A stretch of DNA of 32,036 nt from Gammaproteobacteria bacterium RBG_16_51_14 (GTDB lineage Bacteria; Pseudomonadota; Gammaproteobacteria; Eutrophobiales; Eutrophobiaceae), in assembly GCA_001802375.1 (NCBI GenBank), contig MGXK01000068.1, forward strand, positions 1 through 32,036, written 5' to 3'. Position numbers and translations under genes: made by a program. Positions 2,327-22,077 of this stretch are shown in pieces (position 1 is the first letter of the stretch; every line of letters begins with the position of its first letter). The notes beneath the pieces were generated by a model. That model ran no database searches. It saw only the letters and a program-made list of their open reading frames with translations, and was not told the origin of the DNA.

Positions 2327-2737
2327 ATGAAAAAGATGCAACAAGGCTTTACCCTCATCGAGTTGATGATCGTCGTGGCCATCATCGGTATCCTGGCCGC
2401 CGTCGCGATTCCGTCCTATCAGGACTACACCAAGCGTGCCCATGTCTCGGAAGGTCTGCAACTGGCGGGTGCCGTCAAGACCGGGGTTGCGGAATTCTAT
2501 GGCGCCAACGGTACATGGCCGTCAAACAATACTTCAGCAGGTGCTTCCCTCACTATCACCGGTAATGCAGTCACCTCAGTTGTTAGTGCGGATGGCGTAA
2601 TTACCATCACCTACAACGAAAAAGTGACAGACGGGCTTTTTCTCTTATTGTCCCCAACCACGACTGCCGGCTCGATCGAGTGGGTGTGTACCGGTGGTGA
2701 TGTGGATAGCAAGTATCGACCTGCCAATTGCCGTTAA
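2327..2737 (+). CDS. pilA: Type IV major pilin PilA
   Basis: A prepilin of 136 residues. A short positively charged leader ends at Gly7, and PilD-type cleavage would occur before Phe8. Mature residue 5 is the conserved Glu (FTLIE), followed by a hydrophobic helix of about 20 residues that packs in the pilus core and anchors the subunit in the inner membrane. Cys121 and Cys135 near the C terminus can form the usual disulfide-bonded D-loop. The variable middle contains Ser/Thr/Asn-rich stretches ([16 protein letters not shown]) that could carry glycans. AAGGAG at 2313-2318 sets the start, eight bases upstream. Expression is probably under PilR/sigma-54 control, and a strong hairpin terminator follows. 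The length and the single pair of cysteines are normal for type IVa pilins. Confidence 0.97.
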
Positions 2738-2808: not shown

Positions 2809-4722
2809 ATGTACTGTCTACCCGCACCGGTCTTCTTCTCCCTCCTTGTCCTGACTTTTCTCGTATACCTCCCCGGCCTGGACGGCCCGTTTTTATTTGA
2901 TGATTTCGGGTCTGTCGCGGCACTGGATAAGTATGGGGGCATTTACGATTGGGAAAGCTTCCGTTTGTTTGTATTCGGTGACCACACTGGGCCACTGGGA
3001 CGTCCGATCTCACAATTATCCTTTCTGCTGGATGGGGCTTCCTTTGCTGATCCCTGGCGCTTCAAGTATACCAACCTGATGCTACATCTGTTGAACGGTG
3101 TCATGCTGTGCTGGTTGTACCTGATACTGGAATCCGTGCGGACGAACGGTCAGCACCGGCAACGGATCGCCTGGGTGGCCGTCCTGGCCGCAGGTGCCTG
3201 GCTGTTACATCCTTTTAATGTGTCTACCACCCTCTACGTGGTACAACGGATGACCCAGCTTTCATCACTCTTTGTGCTGGCCGGACTGGTGGGTTATTGC
3301 TTCGGCAGGAGATTGCTCGGGACGGTGCCATGGCAGGGTTATTTTGTCATGAGTATTTCCATCGTTGCCGGTACCGGACTGGCGGTCTTGAGCAAGGAAA
3401 ACGGCTGTTTATTGCCATTATTTATACTGGTACTGGAGTCAACGGTGCTGTCAGGTGTAGGTGAACCGCCTGCCCGCCGCTGGTATGGTCTGTTCCTCGT
3501 AGCACCCGTGGTGTTGATTATTGCCTATTTTGTGTACTACATCGTCAGCGGCCGACTTGTGGATGCGTACGAACTGCGGATATTCACTTTAATGGAACGT
3601 CTGCTGACGGAGGCCCGGGTATTGTGGGATTATCTTGGCAGCTGGTTCTTTCCCGCCGGGATGCCCCGTGGTCTGTATGCGGATGATTACCCGTTATCGA
3701 CCGGCCTGTTTTCACCACCCGGGACGTTGATTGCGATCCTGGGAATCATCCTCCTGCTCGTTGTGGCTGCCAGCAGGAAGGTATGGTCGCCCCTGAGACT
3801 GGCGATCCTGTTTTTCCTGGCCGGTCATCTGATCGAATCCACGATATTCCCCCTGGAATTGTATTTCGAACATCGAAATTATTTGCCGGTGATGTTTCTT
3901 TTTTATCCGGTGATCCTGTTTCTGGAAACTGTCTTGCAGGCAAAGGGTTTGCGCTATCTGGTCGGGGTGTTACTGATTTGTATACCGGCAGTTGTGACGG
4001 CACAACGGGCGTCGTTATGGGGTGATGAATATGCCCTGACCATGATGACTGTGGAGAGATATCCGTATTCAGAACGTGCCCACCGTGTTCTTGCCCTGAT
4101 CCTGGAAAGGAAAGGATACCGGGAGCTTGCGCTGCAGGAATTGTTACGTGCTGAAGATATCCTGTCTGACAGCATGCCCATCAAGATGAATATATTTATA
4201 CAGTCCTGTCTGCATGGTCTGGATGCACGGGAGAGGTTCTCCGAACTGGGTGCCTTGTTTAAAAATGTATCGTACAAGACCATAGAGTATGAATTATTAA
4301 AGTCAGTTGTTATGGTGGTTCATGATCAGGGATGTGTAAATCTGGGACGTGAAAGGGCGCATGTCTTTCTGGATAATTTCAGTCTGAATCCGGGTATACG
4401 GGAACGAAATGGTCCGAAACGGGTAATTTCACATCTTCGTGGTGTGCTTTATGCAGAGGAAAGAAAAGGGGCTCTGGCACTGGATGCATTTATCCGCGCC
4501 CAGTCGTATTACCCGGATGTGGATGCAGGCCTGCTGGAAGTAGCCATTCTGGCGACCAATGACCAGTATGCGGAAGCCCAGGCCTTGCTGGAAAGGGTGG
4601 AATCTATCTCGCAGGCGAAAAATGCCATCCTTTCCGGACGGGGCACCCTGGATTACCCTAAAGAGATTGCGAGATTACGCGGTATTATCCGGAATGATAT
4701 TGAGCAAACCCAGTTTAAATAA
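2809..4722 (+). CDS. GT-C-like membrane glycosyltransferase with helical-repeat C-terminal domain (copy A)
   Basis: This 637-residue protein has many hydrophobic helices over roughly residues 8-395. Its soluble C-terminal third (about 400-637) reads as degenerate TPR-like helix pairs. An Asp-Asp pair (LFDDF, residues 31-32) after the first helix fits the first-loop acid of GT-C enzymes that use polyprenyl-phosphate sugars. Shared motifs with the next gene include YLPG, GRP near residue 65, and HPFN followed by YVVQRM. They correspond to the HPLH...ERKDLL block of the TMTC-like protein at 18536-20371. The ATG at 2809 is the first start after an in-frame stop at 2797, and no clear ribosome site is visible. 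Position next to pilA suggests modification of pilin or another exported protein. Substrate and donor are unknown. Confidence 0.7.
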   Translation: MYCLPAPVFFSLLVLTFLVYLPGLDGPFLFDDFGSVAALDKYGGIYDWESFRLFVFGDHTGPLGRPISQLSFLLDGASFADPWRFKYTNLMLHLLNGVMLCWLYLILESVRTNGQHRQRIAWVAVLAAGAWLLHPFNVSTTLYVVQRMTQLSSLFVLAGLVGYCFGRRLLGTVPWQGYFVMSISIVAGTGLAVLSKENGCLLPLFILVLESTVLSGVGEPPARRWYGLFLVAPVVLIIAYFVYYIVSGRLVDAYELRIFTLMERLLTEARVLWDYLGSWFFPAGMPRGLYADDYPLSTGLFSPPGTLIAILGIILLLVVAASRKVWSPLRLAILFFLAGHLIESTIFPLELYFEHRNYLPVMFLFYPVILFLETVLQAKGLRYLVGVLLICIPAVVTAQRASLWGDEYALTMMTVERYPYSERAHRVLALILERKGYRELALQELLRAEDILSDSMPIKMNIFIQSCLHGLDARERFSELGALFKNVSYKTIEYELLKSVVMVVHDQGCVNLGRERAHVFLDNFSLNPGIRERNGPKRVISHLRGVLYAEERKGALALDAFIRAQSYYPDVDAGLLEVAILATNDQYAEAQALLERVESISQAKNAILSGRGTLDYPKEIARLRGIIRNDIEQTQFK

Positions 4723-4844: not shown

Positions 4845-6740
4845 TTGGCCCGGGAATTGGTGGTGAACTGGCGTTATACAATCTTGCTTGTTATTGCAGT
4901 AATCCTGGTTTATCTGCCCGGATTGCCCGGGGGATTCATTTATGACGATTACGTAAATATTCTGCAAAACGAGTTTATCAGCAATTCAGGTTTCAGTATT
5001 GCAGGCGCATGGGAGACCATGAAATCAGGTATCGCCGGACCTCTGGGACGTCCCCTGCCCATGCTGAGTTTTTACCTGGGCTTCAAATTAAGCGGTTTTT
5101 CCCCACTCGGATACAAACTGTTTAACATTACTGTTCACGCTGTTAATGCAGTACTTGTTTTCATTGTTGTCCGCCGCATTTTATATTTTCTTGGCAGGCA
5201 TGATAAATTCTCCGGGGGCAGGCTGGGTCCAGAGCTTACCGCTTTCTGGGTGACCCTGTTGTGGGCAGTCCATCCCATCAACCTGACATCCGTTCTTTAT
5301 GTGGTACAGCGCATGACCAGTATGGCTGCGACCTTCACACTCATCGGGATATACATTTATCAGCGCATCCGCGAAACCCAACTCCCCGGATCCTGGAAAA
5401 TGGCAGGTGGTTTGGGGCTGGTTATCCTGGCTGGCTTGATTTCTGCAATGTACAAGGAAACCGGGCTGCTTTTATTTTTATACCTGCTTGTATTTGAATG
5501 TTTCCTTTATCGGTGGCAGGTAACCAGTGGAAGGGTACGCCAGTACCTGAATATTTTTTATGCGCTGACTGTCGCCCTGCCTTTTTGTGCAGCAGTCTAT
5601 CTGTCGGTGTTTGGTGATTTGCTGGCAGGCTATGACACAAGACCCTTCGACCTGCAGCAGAGAGTACTGACCGAATCCCGCGTTATCTGGTTCTATATCA
5701 GCCAGATACTGTTACCACAGGCCCATTTATTCAGTCTTTATCACGATGATTTCATTGTATCTGCAGGCCTGTGGGAACCATTGACTACACTGCTATCCAT
5801 CATCGGGATCATTTTCATTGTATCAGCCGGGATTAAATATGCAGGGCGTTTCCCATGGCTGGGTTTCGGGATCGCCTTTTTCCTGTGCGGCCATGCGCTG
5901 GAATCCACCATTTTTCCACTGATCCTGGTTTTTGAACACAGAAACTATCTGCCTTCATTAGGTCTGGTTGTGATCCTGGTCCTGTCACTCAGGATGCTAC
6001 TGAATCTGTCAAAGAACATAAACAGCAATCCTGTTTTTGCCATCATCAGCCTGTTGTTCGCGTCGGTAACGGCAAGTATGGCCTATGACTGGAGTAATAT
6101 TCCCCTGCTGGCGGAAAGAATGGTGCAGCGGCACCCGGCTTCTTCCGGGGCGCATTATGAGCTTGGATATACCTACATGAAATTATATGAGGCGGAACGT
6201 AATCCTGTTTTTGCCGGTGTTTCCCTGCAGGCCTTCAGGGATGCCTATCTGCTTGCCGACAGAAGCAGGAAACTTGAAAGGGCAATTGTGCTTTATCATA
6301 TGACGGTCCTGTATGGCAAACCCCGGGATCAGGCATTGCTGGATGAGATCCTGAACGCTTTCAGGAACAGGAAGGTGGTTGCTGATGATATGAAAGCCTT
6401 GCTGCGTTTCATTAATTGCAGGAATGAAGCGATTTGCAATACGGACGATTCAACCTGCCAGGAAATATTCACCAACCTGTTGGACAATCCGGGCTTGCAG
6501 GGAAGCCTGCGTGATGATGTGTTGTATATCTATGCGACCTATCTTGTTACCGTGCCTGGCAGGGAAGAAAAGGCATTGGTTATTATGCGTGATATCGTGG
6601 CAAGAAATCCGGAAAACCTGGCCTATAAAGTGAAGCTGATTTCTGTGCTTTTGACCAACGAATACAGGGCAGAAGCATACAAGATGATGGACGAACTGAC
6701 GCAGCGTTACGGTACCGAGTGGAAAATTATCAGGAAATAA
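4845..6740 (+). CDS. GT-C-like membrane glycosyltransferase with helical-repeat C-terminal domain (copy B)
   Basis: A tandem paralog of the preceding gene, of similar length (631 residues from the TTG at 4845). Shared landmarks appear in the same order: YLPG at residues 23-26, an Asp-Asp pair (IYDDY, 34-35), GRPLPMLSF, HAVNAV, HPIN followed by YVVQRM, a Lys-Glu pair (MYKETG), and a late ESTIFP...EHRNYLP block also present in copy A. Residues of about 410-631 are soluble and helical. The start is uncertain: GGGAA at 4852-4856 lies just before GTG codons at 4860 and 4863, which would give a 5-6-residue-shorter protein aligning better with copy A. The two copies have diverged clearly, so they may act on different acceptors or with different sugars. 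The role in surface-protein O-glycosylation is inferred from the family and from pilA. Confidence 0.7.
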   Translation: MARELVVNWRYTILLVIAVILVYLPGLPGGFIYDDYVNILQNEFISNSGFSIAGAWETMKSGIAGPLGRPLPMLSFYLGFKLSGFSPLGYKLFNITVHAVNAVLVFIVVRRILYFLGRHDKFSGGRLGPELTAFWVTLLWAVHPINLTSVLYVVQRMTSMAATFTLIGIYIYQRIRETQLPGSWKMAGGLGLVILAGLISAMYKETGLLLFLYLLVFECFLYRWQVTSGRVRQYLNIFYALTVALPFCAAVYLSVFGDLLAGYDTRPFDLQQRVLTESRVIWFYISQILLPQAHLFSLYHDDFIVSAGLWEPLTTLLSIIGIIFIVSAGIKYAGRFPWLGFGIAFFLCGHALESTIFPLILVFEHRNYLPSLGLVVILVLSLRMLLNLSKNINSNPVFAIISLLFASVTASMAYDWSNIPLLAERMVQRHPASSGAHYELGYTYMKLYEAERNPVFAGVSLQAFRDAYLLADRSRKLERAIVLYHMTVLYGKPRDQALLDEILNAFRNRKVVADDMKALLRFINCRNEAICNTDDSTCQEIFTNLLDNPGLQGSLRDDVLYIYATYLVTVPGREEKALVIMRDIVARNPENLAYKVKLISVLLTNEYRAEAYKMMDELTQRYGTEWKIIRK

Positions 6741-6813: not shown

Positions 6814-7725
6814 ATGAATTATCAAAATGATCAGCCAACCACCAGACATGAATATCAGATTATGGAAAACAGAGTAAGTATCATTCTCCCGGCAAAGGAT
6901 GAGTCTGAGGCACTGAAGATCCTGCTGCCGAGACTCAGGAAACTCTATCCGGAAGGGCAGATCATCGTAGTAAATGACGGGTCCAGTGATGATACGGTGG
7001 TAGTTTGCCGGGCCAACGGGGTGGAAGTTGTCTCACACTCCTATTCGATGGGTAACGGGGCGGCGATCAAATCCGGGGCGAGGGCAGCCAGTGGTGATAT
7101 TTTCGTTTTCATGGATGCGGATGGCCAGCATGATCCGAATAATATCCGGCATCTGCTGGAAAAAATACACGAGGGGTTTGACATGGTGGTGGGTGCCCGT
7201 GATGCAGCATCACAGGCAAGTCTCGGGCGTGGCCTGGCGAATTTTATTTACAATAAATTTGCCGGATTCATAGTAAACCATCGCGTTGCGGACCTGACTT
7301 CCGGATACCGTGCCGTCAGGGCCAATAAATTCCGGGAATTCCTGCATCTGTACCCGAACGGATTCTCCTATCCGACGACAAGTACCATGGCATTTTTCCG
7401 ATCCGGTTATTCTGTTGCCTACATCTCCATCAAGGCCGGTAAAAGAACAGGTAACAGTCATATCCGGATAGTAAAGGATGGTATCCGGTTTCTGCTGATT
7501 TTATTCAAGGTCGGGACCCTGTATTCGCCATTGAAAATATTCTTCCCCCTGAGTGCGATGAGTTTTGCCATGGGGATCAGCCATTATTTATATACCTATA
7601 TGACAATCGGCCGGTTTACCAATATGAGCGCACTCCTGTTGATGACCAGTGTGCTGATTTTCCTGATCGGTCTGGTGTCGGAACAGATTACGATGCTGCT
7701 CTACCAGAGAACCGATGGTAAGTGA
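6814..7725 (+). CDS. GT2 glycosyltransferase, polyprenyl-phosphate-sugar synthase type, with C-terminal membrane helices
   Basis: A 303-residue GT-A-fold enzyme. The nucleotide-sugar motifs are VNDGSSDDT (near 55-63) and DADGQHDP (near 101-108), followed by an SxGYRAV-type acceptor motif. The last 80 residues contain two hydrophobic helices, as in polyprenyl-phosphate mannose or glucose synthases. Such enzymes load a sugar onto a lipid carrier on the cytoplasmic face, and GT-C enzymes like the two preceding genes use that product after flipping. The start at 6814 lacks a clear ribosome site. ATG 6862 (MENRVSII) is an alternative that starts nearer the fold. The stop overlaps the next gene's GTG by four bases (GTGA). 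A decayed copy of this protein's C-terminal end occurs at 17151-17310. Confidence 0.8.
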   Translation: MNYQNDQPTTRHEYQIMENRVSIILPAKDESEALKILLPRLRKLYPEGQIIVVNDGSSDDTVVVCRANGVEVVSHSYSMGNGAAIKSGARAASGDIFVFMDADGQHDPNNIRHLLEKIHEGFDMVVGARDAASQASLGRGLANFIYNKFAGFIVNHRVADLTSGYRAVRANKFREFLHLYPNGFSYPTTSTMAFFRSGYSVAYISIKAGKRTGNSHIRIVKDGIRFLLILFKVGTLYSPLKIFFPLSAMSFAMGISHYLYTYMTIGRFTNMSALLLMTSVLIFLIGLVSEQITMLLYQRTDGK

Positions 7726-8084
7726 AGGTTCTTATTGATATCGGGCATCCTGCCTATGTGCACTTCTTTTACCAGCCGATACAACTGCTGCGCAGCCATG
7801 GTCATGAGGTGTTCATCACCAGTCGCAAAAAGGAAATAGCCACCGATTTGCTGGACAAACTGGGTATCGAACATGTCGTGTTGTCTGCAATGGGAAGCAA
7901 GGGGTCCCTGTCCCTGCTCAGGGAATTGATTACGCGTGATATCAAACTGTACCGTGTGGCCAGGCAATATCGCCCGGACATCATGGCGGCGATCGGCGGA
8001 ACTTTATTTCCCAGAATACCGCTGTTCTGTCCAGTCAGCCCTCTGAGTTTTTGCCTACTTCCATACAGGCCCTTAACATACTGA
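7722..8084 (+). pseudogene. Truncated DUF354-like glycosyltransferase gene (5' part only)
   Basis: The first 95 or so residues look like the N-terminal Rossmann half of the DUF354 family, related to UDP-sugar transferases. They include IDIGHPAYVHFF near the start and PDIMAAIGGT near residue 86-95. Family members are about 340-390 residues, but here the similarity stops at about base 8005 and the frame ends 80 bases later in an unrelated tail rich in Pro and Leu. The GTG start overlaps the GT2 stop (GTGA), so this was once the next gene of that operon. The break coincides with a change of gene direction and marks the left edge of the polysaccharide cassette. The family call comes from recalled motifs and is moderately sure. 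The truncation is a visible fact only if that call is right. Confidence 0.6.
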
Positions 8085-8178: not shown

Positions 8179-9366
8179 CTATGCCAGGCTACGCCTTGCT
8201 TTGACAACCCAACTGGCGCTGGCATCAGGTCTTGCGATAATTTGTACATCGTCAAAGCCCGCTTTATCCAACATGGTCTCCACATCGATTTTAGAAAAGT
8301 AGTAGGTTACGGGTGCACCGAGGCGATCGAACCAGCCAACGACATTCTCGCGGAATGGAAACCTTGTGTAGATACGTCCTGGTATTTTCCCCGCCAGTTT
8401 TTTGGTGAAAGGAATTCTTGAGAGTATTCGGTGCGGGATAAGCAAAAATAATTCTGACAGTGCAGCCAGTGTGATGGAAATGACGCGCAAAATACCAAAA
8501 GGCAACCGTGTAGTAATTTTTCGAATCCATATAATCGGCTGATACCATAATTCACGCACTCCGTATACCCATAAAACGAGGCTCTGTCCCGGCGTGACTA
8601 CCCCGGCTATACTTGCCAGCGCCTTTTGGGGATCGGGTATATGCTGAAGTACGCCTACAGAATAGACGAAATCAAACCGCGGACGGAATGGAAGCGCGTA
8701 GACATCTCCCTGCACTACATGAAGCAAGGGATAATGTTCGGTTAGCGATTGCGCCGTTTGCACGGCCTCGCTCAAGTCAACACCGACCACCTCTGCACCA
8801 AAGCTCGCCGCTACGCTGGCCGGCCGCCCAGAACCACAGCCCACTTCCAGAACAAGCTGGTTTTCAAAATCCTTCTCTTTCAGAAACGGGTGTACGAAAC
8901 CGAGAAAGATTTCCTTGTAATAGCCAAAGTTATCTACAAATGTTGTCCACTGATAACCAAAAAGGCGCAGTGTTTTGAGTTTTTTGGTTTCAACAGTTTT
9001 TGTGAGATCATCCTGCTCACCCATTTTGTCCCAGTATTCCTCCAAAAACTCCTGGTGGTAGTTGACAAGGGCTTCATGAAGCAACGTGGCTGGCAACAAT
9101 CGCGGCACACTCTGGATAATGGGGTATCGGTTCCCGCACCCGCAGCAAGTCAACAGACCCGAGATGATCTCATTCTGATAACAGGAAACACATTCTTTTG
9201 CGTCTATTTGGGTAACATCTTTGTTATGAAAAAAGCACCAATACCGGCACCTCGGTTGATCGGATATTGGCGGACAAACTTCCCGATGTTCCCGGGTGAA
9301 TACCTCCAAATCAAATGTCTCATTGCAATTCGGGCACGAGATAATTTCCAATAGTCGGTATTTCAT
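8179..9366 (-). CDS. SAM-dependent methyltransferase with Cys-rich (TRM112-like) N-terminal region
   Basis: A 395-residue protein. Residues 1-90 resemble a zinc-ribbon head: CPNC near 11-14, and later C..C and CCGCG groups followed by YPI...VPRLLP, as in TRM112-like domains fused to methyltransferases. The methyltransferase core follows, with motif I LVLEVGCGSGR near 170-180, an acidic VGVDLS strand end, and a VLQHIPDP motif. The last 130 residues include a hydrophobic patch that may touch the membrane. The gene reads away from the cassette. Nine bases upstream of its start is the stop of a gene remnant (9376-9531), so it has lost an upstream operon partner. The substrate is unknown. Its neighbours suggest a glycan or lipid-linked intermediate. 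Confidence 0.8.
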   Translation of the reverse strand: MKYRLLEIISCPNCNETFDLEVFTREHREVCPPISDQPRCRYWCFFHNKDVTQIDAKECVSCYQNEIISGLLTCCGCGNRYPIIQSVPRLLPATLLHEALVNYHQEFLEEYWDKMGEQDDLTKTVETKKLKTLRLFGYQWTTFVDNFGYYKEIFLGFVHPFLKEKDFENQLVLEVGCGSGRPASVAASFGAEVVGVDLSEAVQTAQSLTEHYPLLHVVQGDVYALPFRPRFDFVYSVGVLQHIPDPQKALASIAGVVTPGQSLVLWVYGVRELWYQPIIWIRKITTRLPFGILRVISITLAALSELFLLIPHRILSRIPFTKKLAGKIPGRIYTRFPFRENVVGWFDRLGAPVTYYFSKIDVETMLDKAGFDDVQIIARPDASASWVVKARRSLA

Positions 9367-9531: not shown

Positions 9532-9827
9532 CTAAACGATCTGGGACAGAGTCTGGATCGGATTCCGTCCGCAACGATTATTCGTATATGCCTGGTCGTA
9601 GATGGCCTGATATACAGGTGGCAATTGCGAACGATTTCAAGGAAAATCATCCAGTAAGCGATCTATATTCATTTTCACGTGTTTTTTATCCATACAATCA
9701 TTATGCGTAAAAGAGCACAGTTACTGACTATGGCATATTCCCCCGCAGGAAGACAAATCTCCAATTGACATGCTGATCGGGATAGTCAGATAGCTTGTCC
9801 GTACCTGCCGCCATTAATAGAAAGCCA

Positions 9828-10586
9828 ATGAATACTGAACAAAAACCAGAGGCACAGAAGCATTATAACATCTCAAAGGAGTACTCCGTGGAGTCTGCCC
9901 TACGCAGGTATATTCGTCTGACGGTGGGTGAGAATGCCTCGCTTTTCAGCCTTATCTGGCATGAACTTTTACTGGGATTCTGTCTGTATATTCCCGGCCT
10001 GCCTGGACTGGCGATAAGAAATCTGCTGTATACAATTTGTTTCCCGCATTTCCATCGCAAGGCCTATGTCGGCAGGCAGGTAACCCTGCGATGCCCACGA
10101 CAGATCTGCCTGGATTCCGGAGTCATTATAGACGATGAAGTCCAGTTAATTGCAACCTCACGTCATCCACATGCCATCTCGATTAACAAGGATTCCTTTT
10201 TACGTAGCCATGTCATGATCAATGCGGGATCTCCTGAAGGCTTTGTGAGTATTGGAGAACGAACGGGTATTGGGCAGGGGACGATTCTGTATGGTAACGG
10301 TGGTCTGCGTATAGGTAATGATGTGCTGATCGCGGGCCATTGTTTTATTGTTGCCTCTTCACACGCTTATGAACAGACGTACATGCCGATAAATCAGCAG
10401 GGTTATACTGCACAAGGTATCACCATAGGTAATAATGTATGGATAGGTGCAGGCGTTACCATTCTCGATGGCATATCGATCGGTGATAACGTTATTATTG
10501 GTGCCAATTCAGTGGTCAACAAATCTGTAGAGGCTAATTCAACCGTAGCCGGCTCACCTGCCAGGCAGATCAAACGAACGACCTGA
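9828..10586 (+). CDS. Hexapeptide-repeat (left-handed beta-helix) acyltransferase
   Basis: A 252-residue protein from ATG 9828. An upstream in-frame TTG at 9795 is possible but has no better ribosome site. The C-terminal 110 residues show the [LIV]-G-x-x-x-x repeat of beta-helix acyltransferases: [21 protein letters not shown], then [18 protein letters not shown] and a closing [14 protein letters not shown]...AGSPAR. His residues near IVASSHAY fit the catalytic His region of O-acetyltransferases. The N-terminal 130 residues hold a hydrophobic stretch that may sit at the membrane. It probably transfers an acetyl or other acyl group to a sugar of the surface polymer. The next gene starts three bases after its stop, so the two form an operon. 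Confidence 0.85.
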
Positions 10587-10588
10587 CG

Positions 10589-11500
10589 GTGAAAATACTT
10601 CGCTACCTGTTCATTATCATTGCGCTTGGCTTCATGCTGAGTCTGCTTTACCAGCAGAGTGCACAGATCTTACAACTTGACCTTAAGTTGTCCATCCCTT
10701 TCATGCTGCTTGGGATCATCGGTATCACGGTGCTTTTTATTCTGGATGCCTACGGTTGGTTATTGATTCTGCGGGTACTTGGCCATCATCCTCCCGTACT
10801 GAGAGCTATCAGAATCTGGATGATTTCCTCTATCGCCCGCTATATCCCCGGCGGTATATGGTCTTATGCCTCTCGTGCAGAACTGGCTCGCCGTGAAAAC
10901 ATTGGCATCGCCACCTCCAGCCTGAGCCTGTTGCTCGAAACCGCGATGCTGGCGAGTTCTTCTCTGGTCATCGGATTACCGGCCCTGCTGCAAGCGAGTG
11001 GTCTGCAGTTTGGTCTATGGCACGCGCTGGGTATGTTTTTCTTCCTCGGCTTATGCATGCATCCAAAAATGTTGACCATGCTTCGCTTCATGCCTGGACG
11101 CGTTGGAAAGGCTTTTGCCAATGTGGCGTTACCCTCCCTAGGACACATATTTACAATCTACTGTTATTACGTCCTGTTCTGGTGCCTGTTCGGACTTGCG
11201 TTTGTAGTATTTTCCAACATGATTTTTCCGTTGGATTACGAGATATGGCTGCCTGTCGGTTCAAGCCTGGCGCTTGGCTTCTTTGCAGGTTTCATTATTC
11301 TTTTTGTGCCGGGAGGAATTGGTGTGCGGGAAACAACACTTTATTTTCTTCTGGTTCCACACATGCCGGACGCACAGGCACTATTGCTCGCCATCACCAG
11401 CCGCTTATGGATCATGTGTGGAGAATTATTATCTCTCGTACTGATAGAAACTCTGTTTCGCATAACAGACAAAACAAAAACCGTTCATCCCGCTTTGTGA
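10589..11500 (+). CDS. LPG-synthase-TM / UPF0104-like integral membrane protein
   Basis: A 303-residue protein, almost entirely hydrophobic, with about eight membrane helices. The signature ARYIPGGIWSYASRAELARR (near 88-107), the later FVPGGIGVRE block (near 240-250) and their spacing are typical of the family that includes the flippase part of MprF. Members often occur in polysaccharide clusters and may move lipid-linked material or modify lipids. The start is GTG at 10589, three bases after the acyltransferase stop. The 3' end overlaps the convergent radical SAM gene by 16 bases. The exact role here is unknown. Confidence 0.75.
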   Translation: MKILRYLFIIIALGFMLSLLYQQSAQILQLDLKLSIPFMLLGIIGITVLFILDAYGWLLILRVLGHHPPVLRAIRIWMISSIARYIPGGIWSYASRAELARRENIGIATSSLSLLLETAMLASSSLVIGLPALLQASGLQFGLWHALGMFFFLGLCMHPKMLTMLRFMPGRVGKAFANVALPSLGHIFTIYCYYVLFWCLFGLAFVVFSNMIFPLDYEIWLPVGSSLALGFFAGFIILFVPGGIGVRETTLYFLLVPHMPDAQALLLAITSRLWIMCGELLSLVLIETLFRITDKTKTVHPAL

Positions 11501-16410: not shown

Positions 16411-17135
16411 TTGCTTTCACACTGGGGTCGAACAGGCCTGGCCACAACGAAATGACCAAACACCGCTGCATTACTATTGTTTAAGCCAAGTAGGAGAAGG
16501 GCGAGCAAGTTTATCGTAATACATAGCGGGTAGCAAAATATGGCCAGTAAAAGACCCATAACAGATGAACAGTCCATAGTCTTTTTAACCTGCTCTAACA
16601 GTGACAAATTAAGCATTTGCAGCGCGACCACAAACGAATTACCGTGCTGTTTGATAGTTACAACGTTCAGTCCATGACGGGCAAGATCCTTTACCAGGCC
16701 GTGTCGTGTAAAGCGATGAAAATCATAAGGCACATCATGTGCCGGATAGATGAACGGCGCTGAAAGATACAATTCACCGTCCGCTTTTAGGATGCGTTGT
16801 ATCTCGGCTAGAACCTGCTCGAATTGCTCCACATGCTCGAGCACCTCAAGCAATAAAACTGCATCGGCTGATGAATCTGCTAATGGCAACTGAGCTGCAT
16901 CGGCAAACACGTGGGGTGGACTATTATAGCGACAATGGGTGTCTGGATAATCAAATCGTAGCAAATCGACACCCGAAGCAATATAACTGGAATGGTTGCT
17001 ATCACCACTGCCTATATCAATTACCCTCCCTGACAAAATATTAGCCAGTAATCGCCTGGATTGAGTATGGTATCGATCTGATAGCCACTGTGGATGCAAG
17101 CATGTTCCTTTTAGCTTGTTCAGTAGTGAACGCAT
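16407..17135 (-). CDS. Class I SAM-dependent methyltransferase, first intact gene of the minus-strand operon
   Basis: A 242-residue protein. Motif I VIDIGSGDSNHSSY lies near 37-50, the LEVLEHVEQFE region near 95-105, and a hydrophobic C-terminal segment (LLLAIFCYPLCITINLLALLLLG) suggests a membrane anchor. It opens the run of five overlapping genes going left. Sixteen bases upstream of its start is the stop of a GT2 remnant (17151-17310), so the operon once had at least one more gene at its head. No clear promoter is visible in the remnant, and expression may come from suhB read-through. Confidence 0.8.
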   Translation of the reverse strand: MRSLLNKLKGTCLHPQWLSDRYHTQSRRLLANILSGRVIDIGSGDSNHSSYIASGVDLLRFDYPDTHCRYNSPPHVFADAAQLPLADSSADAVLLLEVLEHVEQFEQVLAEIQRILKADGELYLSAPFIYPAHDVPYDFHRFTRHGLVKDLARHGLNVVTIKQHGNSFVVALQMLNLSLLEQVKKTMDCSSVMGLLLAIFCYPLCITINLLALLLLGLNNSNAAVFGHFVVARPVRPQCESN

Positions 17136-17150
17136 GATGATGACAGTCCG

Positions 17151-17310
17151 TTATTCTTTAACATACTTTTGATAGATCAGCGAGGTTATCTGCTCGGACA
17201 CCAGTTCAATGAGAAATTCCAGCACACTCGTCAATGGCAGTAATGTACTCATATCGATGCAACGCCCCGAAGTTATGAATGTATAATGATATACTCATTA
17301 TCCATAAATC
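17151..17310 (-). pseudogene. Decayed 3' end of a second DPM1-like GT2 gene
   Basis: Reading the minus strand to the TAA at 17151-17153 gives MSTLLPLTSVLEFLIELVSE, continuing QITSLIYQKYVKE. The intact GT2 gene at 6814-7725 ends MSALLLMTSVLIFLIGLVSE, continuing QITMLLYQRTDGK. The match extends upstream (YHYTFITSGRCIDM against YLYTYMTIGRFTNM) to about 17296. A frameshift then occurs, with a weaker MSIS/MGIS match to about 17310. No start or catalytic domain remains. The rest of the 17136-17387 gap shows no other gene. Confidence 0.8.
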
Positions 17311-17387
17311 CTTCACCCCTGCAGATTTCTGTGTTTTGTATCGCCAGCCTGCCGGGTCTATTGATCATGATATGCCACTCTTGTTTT

Positions 17388-18188
17388 TTATACTTGTTCT
17401 TGACAGGTTGCCGGCATATCCCGCAACGCCTTCAGCATTACCTTGAACAATTTTGGGTTGGCGGCAACGATATTGCCGGAATCCATATAATTCACTCCCC
17501 CCGACAGTTCTCCCACCAGGCCACCGGCCTCCTGGATCAGCAGGGCGCCTGCTGCAATATCCCAGATATTCAGTCTGAATTCCCAGAAACCATCGAGTCG
17601 TCCGCAGGCAAGATAGGCCAGGTCAAGTGCTGCCGCCCCGGCCCGCCTGATCCCGGAAGACATCGGGAAGAAGGCCCGGAAGGTATTCAGGTAGTCTTCC
17701 AGAATATCGTTATCCCTGAACGGGAAACCGGTCCCGAGTAATGCCCCCTCAAGGGTAAGCTGGTTGCTGACGCGAATGCGGCGGTTATTCAACTGGGCTC
17801 CCTGGCCGCGGCTGGCGGTGAAAAGTTCCTGCCGGAGAGGGTCATAGACGACGGCCTGATCCAGAATACCTTTGTGTCGTAATGCGATGGATACGGCAAA
17901 TTGCGGGTAACCATGCAGGAAATTGGTCGTACCGTCCAGCGGGTCGATGATCCATTGGTAATCACTGTTACCTGTTACGCCGGTTTCTTCCCCAAGAAAC
18001 GCGTGTTGTGGAAACGATGTATGGATTGTATTAATGATGATTGCCTCCGCCGCCTTGTCCACGTCCGTGACAAAATCATTCCTGCTTTTTACCTGGACGG
18101 AGATATCCTGTACACGATCCATCTGGCGCACAATCGCATCGCCCGCAGCGCGGGCAGCACGGATAGCAATATTCAACATGGGGTGCAT
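17388..18188 (-). CDS. suhB: Inositol-1-monophosphatase family protein SuhB
   Basis: A 266-residue protein with the metal-dependent phosphatase motifs in order: GEETG (66-70), DPLDGTTNF (82-90) and WDIAAG (209-214). All metal ligands of the family are visible. The enzyme hydrolyses inositol phosphates. In E. coli SuhB also joins the rRNA antitermination complex. In E. coli it lies divergent from trmJ, and a diverged copy of that junction occurs here at both ends of the adjoining 3.5-kb insertion. The gene itself is intact. Length and start (MHPMLNIAIRAAR) are standard. Confidence 0.95.
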   Translation of the reverse strand: MHPMLNIAIRAARAAGDAIVRQMDRVQDISVQVKSRNDFVTDVDKAAEAIIINTIHTSFPQHAFLGEETGVTGNSDYQWIIDPLDGTTNFLHGYPQFAVSIALRHKGILDQAVVYDPLRQELFTASRGQGAQLNNRRIRVSNQLTLEGALLGTGFPFRDNDILEDYLNTFRAFFPMSSGIRRAGAAALDLAYLACGRLDGFWEFRLNIWDIAAGALLIQEAGGLVGELSGGVNYMDSGNIVAANPKLFKVMLKALRDMPATCQEQV

Positions 18189-18529
18189 AAATTTCTCCGG
18201 GATGGCAAATACCTGTTTAACGGGATTATATTATTACACTGATATCGCCGTATGAAGTTTACCATGATTGACAATACCATGGATTGATCTGGTGAAAATG
18301 ACGCATCCGGTCAATATCGGGATGACAATACAAGAAATAATGGCAATGGGGCATAACTGATGTTTAACTGCAGCATCGCCAGAAAAGATATTTTCAACAT
18401 GGCAAGATCACCTGTATTCACACCAGTTATGAAATTAACCAGGTTGTTTAATACCTTGGCGAAAACAACCAGTTTTACAGTGCAACGATGATCTGCGTAT
18501 AGCCGGATCAAAAATATCAATCCGGTCTG
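18102..18529. repeat. Left copy of the suhB-trmJ junction (diverged direct repeat)
   Basis: It covers the first 87 bases of suhB coding sequence, the intergenic gap and a broken trmJ start. It aligns with 22108-22532, about 4.0 kb to the right and in the same orientation. The best-kept parts are GCATAAATTTCTCC against ACATAAGTTTCTCC, TATGAAGTTTACC against TATGAAGTTTAAC, and GATTGACAATA in both. Confidence 0.85.
18252..18529 (+). pseudogene. Broken 5' fragment of trmJ
   Basis: ATG at 18252 gives MKFTMIDNTMD and then a stop. One frame over, LVKMTHPVNIGMTIQEIMAM matches the intact trmJ segment LVETTHPGNIGATARAMKTM. Nucleotide similarity continues through AAAGATATTTTC / AAAATATTCCC and TGCAACGATGATCTGCG / TGCAACAGGGTGATTGCG to about 18529. 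That is seven bases from the stop of the next gene. About 90 codons are represented, with frameshifts and stops. This explains most of the 18189-18535 gap. Confidence 0.85.
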
Positions 18530-18535
18530 TATCAT

Positions 18536-20371
18536 TTATTCAAGCTGCTCAATCTGTTTATCAATTCTCCCGTCATAGCCATATCCATATGTTTTCTTCA
18601 GTCTGGTTAAAATGCCCAGGGCGATATCCTTGTTATGATAAGAATGAGCTTGTGCAAGCAGTAATTTTGCCTCGAGATCGACGGGGGAATCTGCCGGCAC
18701 GGATTCAAGAACACGAATTGACTGTTTAATGTCACCAAGCTGTATGAATAATCTGCCCAGCCGCAGCAAACCATATGGATAGTTGGTCTCGACCTCGATC
18801 GAACGTTTATAGTAATCAAAAGCGCGTTTATATTGTCTGTCGGCATAAAAATAATCTCCGGCCTGGATATACGCCAATGGATTTTCAGGATTATTTGTTA
18901 TTCCCGTCATATAGGTGTCAAGTGATTTTTCATTCTCTCCCAGTTTGCCATAGGCTAAAGCAAGATTTGAGTAAGCTGAAAGCTTGTGTTTGTTCAATTC
19001 AATCGCATTTGCATACTGAATAGCAGCATCATGAAAGTTGCCCAGTTCGTAATAGCTGTTGCCGAGATTTTGATGTGCTGTCGTGGATATATGGGGGTAT
19101 TTGCTGACAACATAATCCCATAAGGATAAATCAGAGCGCCAGACGTCCTTATACTGATGTGTATGCAAGGCCAAAAGCAGTATCACGAGTGGTATTGCAC
19201 TAATCGATATGACCCGGTACCAGCCAGCCCTGAAGATGGCTTCAGCGGCCAGATAACCGGTCAGCAGGTAAAAACCTGTCATCGGCAGGTAGGTATACCT
19301 GTCGGCATAAGCCTGCTCACCTACTTTTATGATCCCGATGACAGGCAGTAGTGCTATCAGGAAAAATGTAAAAACAAGCAATAACACTTTCTGCCTTGTC
19401 ATTACCAGTCCTGCAATAAAAAGCATTCCAAGGAAACCGGATAAGTATAAATAACCCTGTGGAACCGTATTCAGTATCTCCATGGGATAAAAAGGAGACA
19501 GAGTAAACGGATAAAAAAAGGCGAGCAGGTAATGTTGTACGGCGGAAATTGAGATATTGATTTTATCAATTACCGGAGGTTGCACTGTCTTGACGACGCC
19601 CTGGGATATGATTGTTATGGCAAGTACAGCAAGTGCAGTAATGTAATAGTGGATTTTCTCGATAAAACAGATATGGAAACGTTGGCTTGATGACCTGGAG
19701 GCAAATCTTTGTAATGGATAAACATCCAGCAGCAATAGCACTATTGGCAGGCTAACCGCCATTGGTTTTGAAAAAAGGGAAAAGCAGAAAAACAGGAAAG
19801 GCATATCCGCCCTGCATGAGTCCCTGCCGTTATGCAGGCGAATATAAAATATTATCGATAACAGATAAAACAGGCTGCTGAGGAGATCCTTCCTCTCGGC
19901 TGCCCATATCACGGACTCGGCATGCAGGGGATGTACGGCAAACAGGGATGCGGAGATGATACTGGCAATAAAAACCCTGGACTGATGTGCCTGATTATCA
20001 GGAATCAGGGTATTGATCATCAACCAGCACAAACAATAGACAAGAAAGGCATTCACTGCATGCAAGCCTGTATTTGTCAATTTATAGCAACTGGCAGTAT
20101 TCCCGCAAAGATAGTAATCAGGTATATAGCTCAGCCAGGTGAATGGATGCCAATTTTGCAAGTGAAATGACGTAAAGAGATCAGAAATACCGGACCACGA
20201 TGGATCTGTTACCCAGGGATTGGTCGTGATGTAGGTTATATCATCCCAGTGCAGCAGTTCATGATTACTGTTATCAGAATAGGAGATCCATACCAGTAAC
20301 AGGCAGGTCAGCAAGGCCCCCAGATGGAGCTGGTTACTTGAGCGGAAAATCACCGGGTTTGCGAAAATCAA
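18536..20371 (-). CDS. TMTC-like GT-C membrane protein with C-terminal TPR repeats
   Basis: A 611-residue protein. About ten membrane helices occupy residues 15-400. The Asp-Asp pair HWDDITYI (43-44) lies in the first outer loop. WHPFTWLSY, a HAVNAFLVY helix and the block FAVHPLHAESVIWAAERKDLLSS (split here as FAVHPLHAE and AERKDLLSS) are as in the TMTC/DUF1736 family. Residues of about 415-611 hold at least four TPRs (for example AHQNLGNSYYELGNFHDAAI, SNLALAYGKLGENEKSL). Eukaryotic TMTC proteins are O-mannosyltransferases that use dolichyl-phosphate mannose. Bacterial homologues are largely untested. The start overlaps the GT2 stop by 38 bases. Copies A and B near pilA are more distant relatives. 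Confidence 0.78.
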   Translation of the reverse strand: MIFANPVIFRSSNQLHLGALLTCLLLVWISYSDNSNHELLHWDDITYITTNPWVTDPSWSGISDLFTSFHLQNWHPFTWLSYIPDYYLCGNTASCYKLTNTGLHAVNAFLVYCLCWLMINTLIPDNQAHQSRVFIASIISASLFAVHPLHAESVIWAAERKDLLSSLFYLLSIIFYIRLHNGRDSCRADMPFLFFCFSLFSKPMAVSLPIVLLLLDVYPLQRFASRSSSQRFHICFIEKIHYYITALAVLAITIISQGVVKTVQPPVIDKINISISAVQHYLLAFFYPFTLSPFYPMEILNTVPQGYLYLSGFLGMLFIAGLVMTRQKVLLLVFTFFLIALLPVIGIIKVGEQAYADRYTYLPMTGFYLLTGYLAAEAIFRAGWYRVISISAIPLVILLLALHTHQYKDVWRSDLSLWDYVVSKYPHISTTAHQNLGNSYYELGNFHDAAIQYANAIELNKHKLSAYSNLALAYGKLGENEKSLDTYMTGITNNPENPLAYIQAGDYFYADRQYKRAFDYYKRSIEVETNYPYGLLRLGRLFIQLGDIKQSIRVLESVPADSPVDLEAKLLLAQAHSYHNKDIALGILTRLKKTYGYGYDGRIDKQIEQLE

Positions 20372-21104
20372 AGCGCCTGCTTTTCATAAAACCGAGTCTG
20401 GCGAGTTTGTATTCAAGCGTCGTCGTTACTACCGCGAGTCCATACCTGATTGAACGCATGAACCCGATGGAGGATGAATCTTCCAGATAACGTGTCGGGC
20501 AGGTGATTTCGCCAATGGAGTAACCTGCTCCGATGATCTGCAAGAGCATCTGGTTATCGAAAATATAGTCATCACTGTTCTGGTCAAGCGGCAGGCTCTC
20601 GATAATGGTTTTGGAAAAAGCCCGGAATCCTGTGTGATATTCTGACAATTTATAAGGGATAAGAAGATTTTGATAAAGGGTTAATATCCTGTTGGCCATG
20701 TACTTGTAGACAGGCATGCCACCTTTCAGGGTCCCCTGGCCCAGGATGCGGGATCCCAATGTACAGTCAAATACTCCCTGGGCTATCAGTGAGGCCATTG
20801 CCGTAACCAGTTTTGGTTCATACTGATAGTCAGGATGCACCATGATGATAATATCGGCCCCGATGTCCAGTGCCTTCCGGTAGCAGGTTTTCTGGTTTGC
20901 CCCATAACCCTTGTTTGTATCATGACGTATCACGTGCTGGATACCCAATTTTCTGGCTTTATCTGATGTATCATCAGAGCTGCAGTCATCAACCAGAATT
21001 ACGTCATCGACAATATCCATTGGCAAAAAACGGTAGGTTTTTTCAAGTGTTCTGCCTGCATTATAGGCAGGCATGACGACTGCTATTTTCTTGTTGTTAA
21101 TCAT
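20334..21104 (-). CDS. GT2 glycosyltransferase, DPM1-like
   Basis: A 256-residue GT-A enzyme. The opening VVMPAYNAGRTLEKT, the DDVILVDDCSSDDT donor site (near 33-46) and the metal-binding VHPDYQYEP (near 89-97, with HPD in place of the usual DxD) are followed by TGFRAFSK. It lacks the C-terminal membrane helices of the GT2 at 6814-7725, so it is soluble or peripheral. It sits between a TMTC-like transferase and a methyltransferase, with overlaps on both sides, and could make the polyprenyl-phosphate sugar used by the former. The pairing is inferred from context. Confidence 0.82.
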   Translation of the reverse strand: MINNKKIAVVMPAYNAGRTLEKTYRFLPMDIVDDVILVDDCSSDDTSDKARKLGIQHVIRHDTNKGYGANQKTCYRKALDIGADIIIMVHPDYQYEPKLVTAMASLIAQGVFDCTLGSRILGQGTLKGGMPVYKYMANRILTLYQNLLIPYKLSEYHTGFRAFSKTIIESLPLDQNSDDYIFDNQMLLQIIGAGYSIGEITCPTRYLEDSSSIGFMRSIRYGLAVVTTTLEYKLARLGFMKSRRFDFRKPGDFPLK

Positions 21105-22077
21105 GATTATTAATTGTGACCTGTATGGTCAGACATGCTCCCTGCCTGAATAAGCCGGAGATATAATGTTCTGTGACAGCAAGAATCATAAGCGGAAACA
21201 AAATCGGCAGATAGGCTACAGACAGAAAAAGCGAGGTAACGTTCATATCTTTTTTGAGCAAGCTGTAAAGATGATTATTTTTAATTCCGGGCAGGTAATT
21301 CAGTATGCTCTGAATAAATCCATAAGTGTTTTGATCAAATACACACGTGTTTTGTCTGGTAATTTTCATATTAACAGTCCGGAGTAACAACTCTAAAGAC
21401 GTGTATTCAAAGTGAAATAGATGCCTTGGTAAATCCAGGTGAAACCAGTGATTATTGAATAATCGTGACTGATTACTGCCGAAATTGGGGACGGAAATAA
21501 AAAGGCTCCCTGAATTGTCAAGTAGATCCCTGGCTTTTGCCAGTGTCTCTTTAGGGTTGTTCAGATGTTCTAACACATGCCACAGGACAATAATATCAAA
21601 TGATCCTGTCTGTGCCTCAAGGTCAGCAAGATCACAACATAGTATATGTGGTAAACCGGAGAACGGTGAACCTTCACGTTCTGTACCCATTATAGTATGA
21701 CCTGCAGCTGCAAAGGCATTCAACAGCACGCCACGACCGCATCCGATATCCAGAATACGCAGGGGTTTGTCCGGGCCCCCGTGCTGTCTCAGCAGCCACC
21801 TGGCACGCCTTCTGCCGATGAATCTTGACCAAAGCTCCGGCAGGCGGTTAAATTTCGAGTCACTACTGCCGTAATAGTCAGAATTGTAAGCCTGTGCCAG
21901 TAGATCAGTGGAAGGCTTTGGATAAGTTTGTACTACACCACATTGAAGACACCTGCAGAGGCAATAGTTACCGTTTCCATCAAAACCGGCCGCTGTAAGG
22001 AGAGGACTGGCAGTATTCACATCATTACTGCCACATAGAGCGCAATACCCATACCCCTCTATTGATTTTTGAGTCAC
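21097..22077 (-). CDS. SAM-dependent methyltransferase with N-terminal zinc-binding region
   Basis: A 326-residue protein. YCALCGSND (11-19) and CRCLQCGVVQ (near 42-51) supply paired cysteines for a zinc ribbon, as in several sugar methyltransferases. The core has motif I RILDIGCGRGVLL (near 106-118) and VLWHVLEHLNNPKE (near 162-175). A hydrophobic stretch near 290-310 suggests membrane contact. It heads the three-gene minus-strand module, overlapping the GT2 start by eight bases. The broken suhB copy begins about 30 bases upstream of its start. Confidence 0.82.
   Translation of the reverse strand: MTQKSIEGYGYCALCGSNDVNTASPLLTAAGFDGNGNYCLCRCLQCGVVQTYPKPSTDLLAQAYNSDYYGSSDSKFNRLPELWSRFIGRRRARWLLRQHGGPDKPLRILDIGCGRGVLLNAFAAAGHTIMGTEREGSPFSGLPHILCCDLADLEAQTGSFDIIVLWHVLEHLNNPKETLAKARDLLDNSGSLFISVPNFGSNQSRLFNNHWFHLDLPRHLFHFEYTSLELLLRTVNMKITRQNTCVFDQNTYGFIQSILNYLPGIKNNHLYSLLKKDMNVTSLFLSVAYLPILFPLMILAVTEHYISGLFRQGACLTIQVTINNHD

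Follow-up and report, generated by a model that had tools for sequence, protein, structure and literature searches.

Loci for O-antigen and capsule synthesis have fixed flanks, an exchangeable middle and broken genes at the joins, and stubs of genes where swapped surface-glycan blocks meet their neighbours are a familiar phenomenon. In the locus described here the corresponding flanks are pilA-TPR-GT2 on one side and suhB-trmJ-purM on the other.

Repeated, superimposed horizontal replacements are described at the pilA-centred pilCABRS cluster of Xanthomonas vasicola (PMC4235730). The present locus is similar in that it is centred on pilA and has probably undergone horizontal replacement; the variation reported in X. 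vasicola concerns pilA and the neighbouring pil genes of close strains, whereas here a block of glycan genes behind pilA varies across families, and the scar is the tail of a gene. In Pseudomonas aeruginosa, the pilA-associated genes tfpO and tfpW encode proteins that glycosylate pilin (PMC11841053), and TfpW is a GT-C arabinosyltransferase according to a title cited there. By comparison, the present locus has GT-C/TPR proteins, a GT2 and a many-gene block behind pilA, and its role in pilin glycosylation is putative. No paper describing a pilA-to-suhB locus was found by title or by the opening of the abstract.

The window, i.e., the whole stretch of DNA that was analysed, spans 32,036 nucleotides (contig MGXK01000068.1, Gammaproteobacteria bacterium RBG_16_51_14, family Eutrophobiaceae). 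Our main reading, to which we give a probability of about three in four, is that positions 17151-17291 are the final 46 codons of a GT2 gene that once headed an imported MT16-GT4-Asn-MT12-rSAM cassette, left behind as a dead scar. The features of the locus are as follows.

2327..2737, plus strand: pilA, type IV pilin (Pfam Pilin, E 1.7e-21, and N_methyl)
2809-4722, plus strand: TPRa, membrane protein with C-terminal TPR
4845-6740, plus strand: TPRb, membrane protein with C-terminal TPR, modelled GT-C fold
6814..7725, plus strand: intact GT2, polyprenyl-phosphate-sugar-synthase-like, the only full-length copy of its type in the genome
7722..8084, plus strand: broken DUF354 gene, on the resident side, with homology in 7722-8018 only (residues 1-100 of 355)
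8179..9366, minus strand: MT8, methyltransferase (Pfam), 61% identical in the L079 cassette
9795..10586, plus strand: hexapeptide acetyltransferase (Pfam Hexapep), 62.5% identical in L165
10589..11500, plus strand: LPG_synthase_TM-like membrane protein (Pfam), convergent with the rSAM gene, as in L077
11485..12612, minus strand: rSAM, radical SAM/SPASM protein, 79% identical in L077
12609..13370, minus strand: MT12, methyltransferase, 70-73% identical in L076/L077
13367..15232, minus strand: Asn, asparagine-synthase-like amidotransferase (Pfam Asn_synthase), in an order common to L076-L079
15232..16410, minus strand: GT4, glycosyltransferase (Pfam Glycos_transf_1), in an order common to L076-L079
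16407..17135, minus strand: MT16, methyltransferase (Pfam Methyltransf_11), the first intact gene of the cassette
17151..17291, minus strand: GT2 C-terminal remnant (GT2 residues 258-299, four more residues and TAA), by tblastn and profile
17252-17151, minus strand: open frame of 33 codons inside the remnant, ATG at 17252
17292..17387, minus strand: right junction, in-frame TAA-TGA; from there to the suhB stop no GT2 similarity is detected
17388..18188, minus strand: suhB, conserved right flank of the variable locus (Pfam Inositol_P)

L076 and L077 are loci from Sedimenticola, L078 is from Thiolapillus brandeum and L079 from Ectothiorhodospiraceae; L165 is a second contig of the L077 genome, and numbers with G denote genomes of the family.

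Judged from sequence, the region from pilA to suhB is a variable locus with conserved flanks. In the relatives, the layout is pilA-(GT-C/TPR)-GT2, then a variable block, then suhB-trmJ. A full-length GT2 is present in 25 relatives. In 18 of them a single contig carries both GT2 and suhB, and in 17 of these the two genes are convergent and 4.8-24.7 kb apart; the exception, G037, has them 96 kb apart and not convergent, and the seven relatives outside this count have suhB on another contig or none found. The genes between GT2 and suhB vary widely in the ten loci that we listed. The left side, with pilA and the two TPR proteins, also carries a sigma-54 response regulator and a frame that we take to be sensor-kinase-like. 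TPRa and TPRb have no Pfam match. The AlphaFold model of TPRb (mean pLDDT 85.4, 14 sequences) gave no Foldseek match at E 0.001 or better; a second-look structural aligner superposed it on OST, PMT, PglB and ArnT chains with Z of 14-18 over ~310-370 residues. The model thus makes TPRb a putative GT-C transferase that carries a TPR domain at its C-terminus, and the TPRa/TPRb family may represent pilin glycosyl- or oligosaccharyltransferases that have yet to be named. By sequence, the intact GT2 matches 5mlz, 9hwj and 5ekp, and it resembles DPMS, ArnC and sll0501. By fold and family resemblance, then, pilA adjoins a predicted GT-C transferase and a prenyl-phosphate-sugar-synthase-like GT2, and the region from pilA to suhB is a probable pilin-glycan locus, in which GT2 would load a sugar on polyprenyl phosphate, the GT-C enzymes would use this sugar at the pilin or close to it, and changes in the glycan would come from the variable block.

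At the left end of the variable block, DUF354 is broken, and the part beyond residues 1-100 of 355 was not found anywhere in the genome. In the GT2 tree, the GT2 of the window groups with those of G039, G003 and G002 (SH-aLRT 91 in a short search). In all three genomes, GT2 is followed by an intact DUF354 and then by a gene of the Asn type, so that the resident block of the window probably also began with DUF354 and was cut there.

At the right end, the first-pass annotation had noticed that a short C-terminal peptide resembles the GT2 encoded at 6814-7725. With the 303-aa GT2 as query, tblastn in the window aligns 17291-17166 (minus strand) with GT2 residues 258-299 at 64% identity (E 1.9e-10), and in a search of the whole 2.67-Mb genome with the same protein the match covers GT2 residues 254-299 (E 5.8e-9). 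The remnant scores 40.3 bits on a GT2 profile built from 55 intact GT2s, against 11.5 bits for the best of 200 randomised windows obtained by first-order Markov resampling. As sole query, it matches 26 of the 53 family genomes: each of 25 relatives gives a single match, the C-terminal tail of a full-length GT2, and the genome of the window gives two, the remnant itself and GT2. The same search found no second copy of a bare GT2 tail in the other 52 genomes. Because tblastn, profile and remnant-only searches all point to GT2 tails, the observation stands. The region is short and hydrophobic, as would suit a chance similarity of two membrane helices, but the 40.3 bits lie far above the 11.5 bits of the random windows, the remnant alone retrieves only GT2 tails from 53 genomes, and it sits exactly where relatives have their GT2; the probability of a chance match is negligible.

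No stop interrupts the frame of the remnant between 17291 and the TAA at 17153-17151, and it extends 13 codons upstream of the 33-residue peptide. The similarity had been thought to run upstream as far as a frameshift; it stays in the same frame up to 17291 and ends at an adjacent TAA and TGA in frame just upstream, beyond which the GT2 profile detects no similarity in three frames. A frameshifted continuation was ruled out, as both other frames score not above 0 bits. The two stops are located where the homology gives out and could be part of the junction rather than of the old gene, which makes them, by themselves, weak evidence of decay. What is left is the C-terminal membrane end of GT2; unlike the polyprenyl-phosphate glycosyltransferases of family GT2 (DPMS, ArnC and sll0501), it has no catalytic domain. 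The stop codon lies 15 nt ahead of the MT16 ATG at 17135, rather than the 16 bases given earlier.

Lost constraint is seen when the remnant is compared with 57 distinct intact GT2 tails from family members and wider homologues. Eight of its residues, and its two stops, are unseen at those positions in the intact tails; in leave-one-out controls, 56 of the 57 intact tails have five or fewer unseen residues, and one outlier has 10. Gly286, invariant in 57/57 intact tails, is replaced by Glu, and the hydrophobic stretch around it contains a second Glu. Second codon positions account for a share of 0.241 of the differences, compared with a maximum of 0.240 and a median of 0.169 in the 57 intact genes. 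With its homology, truncation, relaxed constraint and syntenic intact orthologue, the remnant is classified from its sequence as a GT2-family pseudogene, and it is likely to have no function by itself. One could suppose that the peptide of 33 residues has been retained as a small gene, or that it serves as a leader whose translation is coupled to that of MT16: the frame starts with ATG, it stops 15 nt before MT16, and, by eye, no strong ribosome-binding site is seen immediately upstream of MT16. We consider this improbable in view of the residues and stops unseen in intact tails, the two acidic residues in a hydrophobic stretch, one of them at Gly286, and the lack of another such tail in the other 52 genomes searched.

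Across its 46 codons, the remnant differs from the resident GT2 at 13 first, 12 second and 29 third positions, and only 11 of the 28 shared residues are encoded by the same codon. This pattern is that of long divergence while the gene was apparently functional, with decay added. A recent duplication of the resident GT2 was rejected, since 29 of 46 third positions differ. Over 46 residues, the remnant shares 61% identity with the resident GT2 and 41% with the Sedimenticola GT2 tails, and it is closer to most GT2 tails of its own family than to the Sedimenticola tail. Tree placement, for which 46 codons are too few, rejects neither grouping with the resident GT2 (AU p 0.473) nor grouping with the GT2s of L076/L078 (AU p 0.575).

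The gene order in relatives indicates what stood ahead of MT16. Good MT16 homologues occur in four of the 53 family genomes (G029, G030, G001 and G022; E 4e-43 to 1.5e-38, the next match being at 8e-18), and in all four MT16 lies directly behind the TPR-GT2 pair. Outside the family, an intact GT2 heads the series GT2-MT16-GT4-Asn-MT12-rSAM in L076, L077 and L078, as far as the contigs reach (L078 ends in Asn and L076 in MT12); the gene behind GT2 in these loci is 51-52% identical to MT16. The three do not count as independent cases, as their GT2s are near-identical. The broader scan of the genome collection returned 80 loci, of which 55 have an MT16 match below 1e-15 and 53 of these at least 700 bp of upstream sequence. 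In 26 of the 53 loci, MT16 is preceded by a GT2 no more than 1.5 kb away on the same strand, with a gap under 100 bp in 23 of the 26; in seven further loci GT2 is elsewhere in the locus, and 20 loci have no GT2. Four of the 26 (L081, L082, L095 and L105) are family genomes again. Strains of Luteimonas and Sinimarinibacterium are among those in which MT16 comes after a GT2. The order-level search yielded the same 53 genomes as the family search, and the class-level search added 8 genomes of 369 with MT16 below 1e-25. In these short loci, GT2 is directly ahead of MT16 in L068, L069 and L073, further upstream in L071 and L074, and missing from L070, L072 and L075. The suggestion that the cassette arrived with, or once possessed, its own GT2, together with the proposal to look for an intact GT2 ahead of the same operon in relatives, is thus borne out by L076-L078 and, for MT16, by the four family genomes.

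The similarity of arrangement extends through the cassette. From 17291 down to 9795, the order and strands of genes match L077/L165; in L165, the LPG-Hex pair adjoins a TPR gene and pilA, and the two contigs are probably neighbours because each of them ends inside the LPG gene. In L079, all eight intact cassette genes form one block, located between what we take to be pilB-like genes and GT2-TPR-pilA, which identifies the interval of 8.2-17.1 kb as a coherent unit. GT2 there lies at the other end of the cassette, and there is no GT2 tail near MT16, so that no intermediate stage is seen elsewhere. MT16 is 47-52% identical to its homologues in Sedimenticola, Thiolapillus and Ectothiorhodospiraceae and 38-40% identical to those within the family, and the nearest homologues found for the other cassette genes are in Sedimenticola. 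The cassette genes have a G+C content of 42-50%, below the 54% of suhB.

In L079/L164, the LPG gene is split into two frames. The Hexapep-LPG pair (9795-11500) is inverted relative to L079 and has the same orientation as in L077/L165, and this difference indicates that block-internal inversions occur in the cassette family.

These relationships would be explained if the cassette was inserted into the slot between the pilA-TPR-GT2 arm and suhB, bringing along no less than the end of a GT2 of its own, with the head of the cassette placed at suhB by a presumably non-homologous join. The resident DUF354-led genes would have been displaced, and DUF354 cut at about codon 100. As the resident GT2 is intact, the second one would be redundant, and its tail would drift freely. 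Redundancy fits the finding of one GT2 match below 1e-90 per genome in 26/26 genomes, among the matches listed. Some observations speak against import: the lower identity of the remnant to the Sedimenticola GT2 tail than to the resident GT2, the lack of a repeat or insertion sequence at the junctions, and the lack of a GT2 tail near MT16 in L079.

The serious rival is that the locus was inverted in place and its left arm repaired afterwards. A TPR-GT2-MT16 arrangement would once have been in forward orientation, as in G029/G030; an inversion with its ends inside GT2 and by suhB would have turned it around, and the left GT2 would then have been restored by recombination with a TPR-GT2-DUF354 strain, ending inside DUF354. 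Relatives within the family do carry MT16 forward behind GT2, a break inside GT2 predicts precisely a bare, flipped C-terminal tail beside suhB, and the greater proximity of the remnant to most in-family tails is in accord with such an origin. This scenario nevertheless requires two events, the cassette genes, MT16 included, are nearer to Sedimenticola, Thiolapillus and Ectothiorhodospiraceae than to in-family homologues, and the L079 cassette likewise faces GT2 tail-first. We regard inversion as unlikely, though to be taken seriously, and prefer import. As inversion with later left-arm repair would leave the same junctions, the earlier proposal of a replacement of about 9 kb holds in part: the broken DUF354 and the unity of the cassette agree with it, and a single step is not demonstrated.

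At the right junction, positions 17280-17400 are single-copy in the genome, and a search for repeats or an insertion sequence at the two junctions found only short, chance-like repeats and no convincing pair. An insertion sequence or integron cassette was rejected, as there is no terminal repeat pair at the junctions and Pfam finds no recombinase among the cassette genes. The genome is a draft in 154 contigs, in which the cassette might have been wrongly joined to suhB; such an assembly join would not make a degraded GT2 tail, and the flanks match the usual locus of the family (17/18), which leaves a chimera improbable as well. A simple consensus scan found no promoter or terminator between suhB and MT16 (17136-17387, minus strand), which would make read-through from suhB a likely way for the cassette to be transcribed.

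The remnant is a common sort of scar left by gene exchange, and its chief use is to show how the block was joined. The GT2 stub places the right-hand join within ~100 bases, the DUF354 stub marks the left-hand join, and the GT2 stub also identifies GT2 as the natural first gene of the block. This points to a portable pilin-glycan unit that is found behind different pil genes in several families, with one GT2 copy persisting. Rather speculatively, a pilus-glycan locus may be kept across gammaproteobacterial families at one GT2, the donor-sugar synthase, per genome, while blocks are exchanged between pil-gene settings (pilB-like in Sedimenticola, suhB here) and flip, with the GT2 and DUF354 stubs recording the order of exchange; if so, the switching of glycan types could be read from these scars.

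Between suhB and trmJ, at 18311-22077, the window also contains a gene for a large TPR membrane protein, a second, different GT2 and a methyltransferase, at 44-46% G+C. As suhB and trmJ are adjacent in all six relatives in which both flanks were read (L059, L060, L062, L065, L066 and L067), this segment looks like a second, separate insertion.
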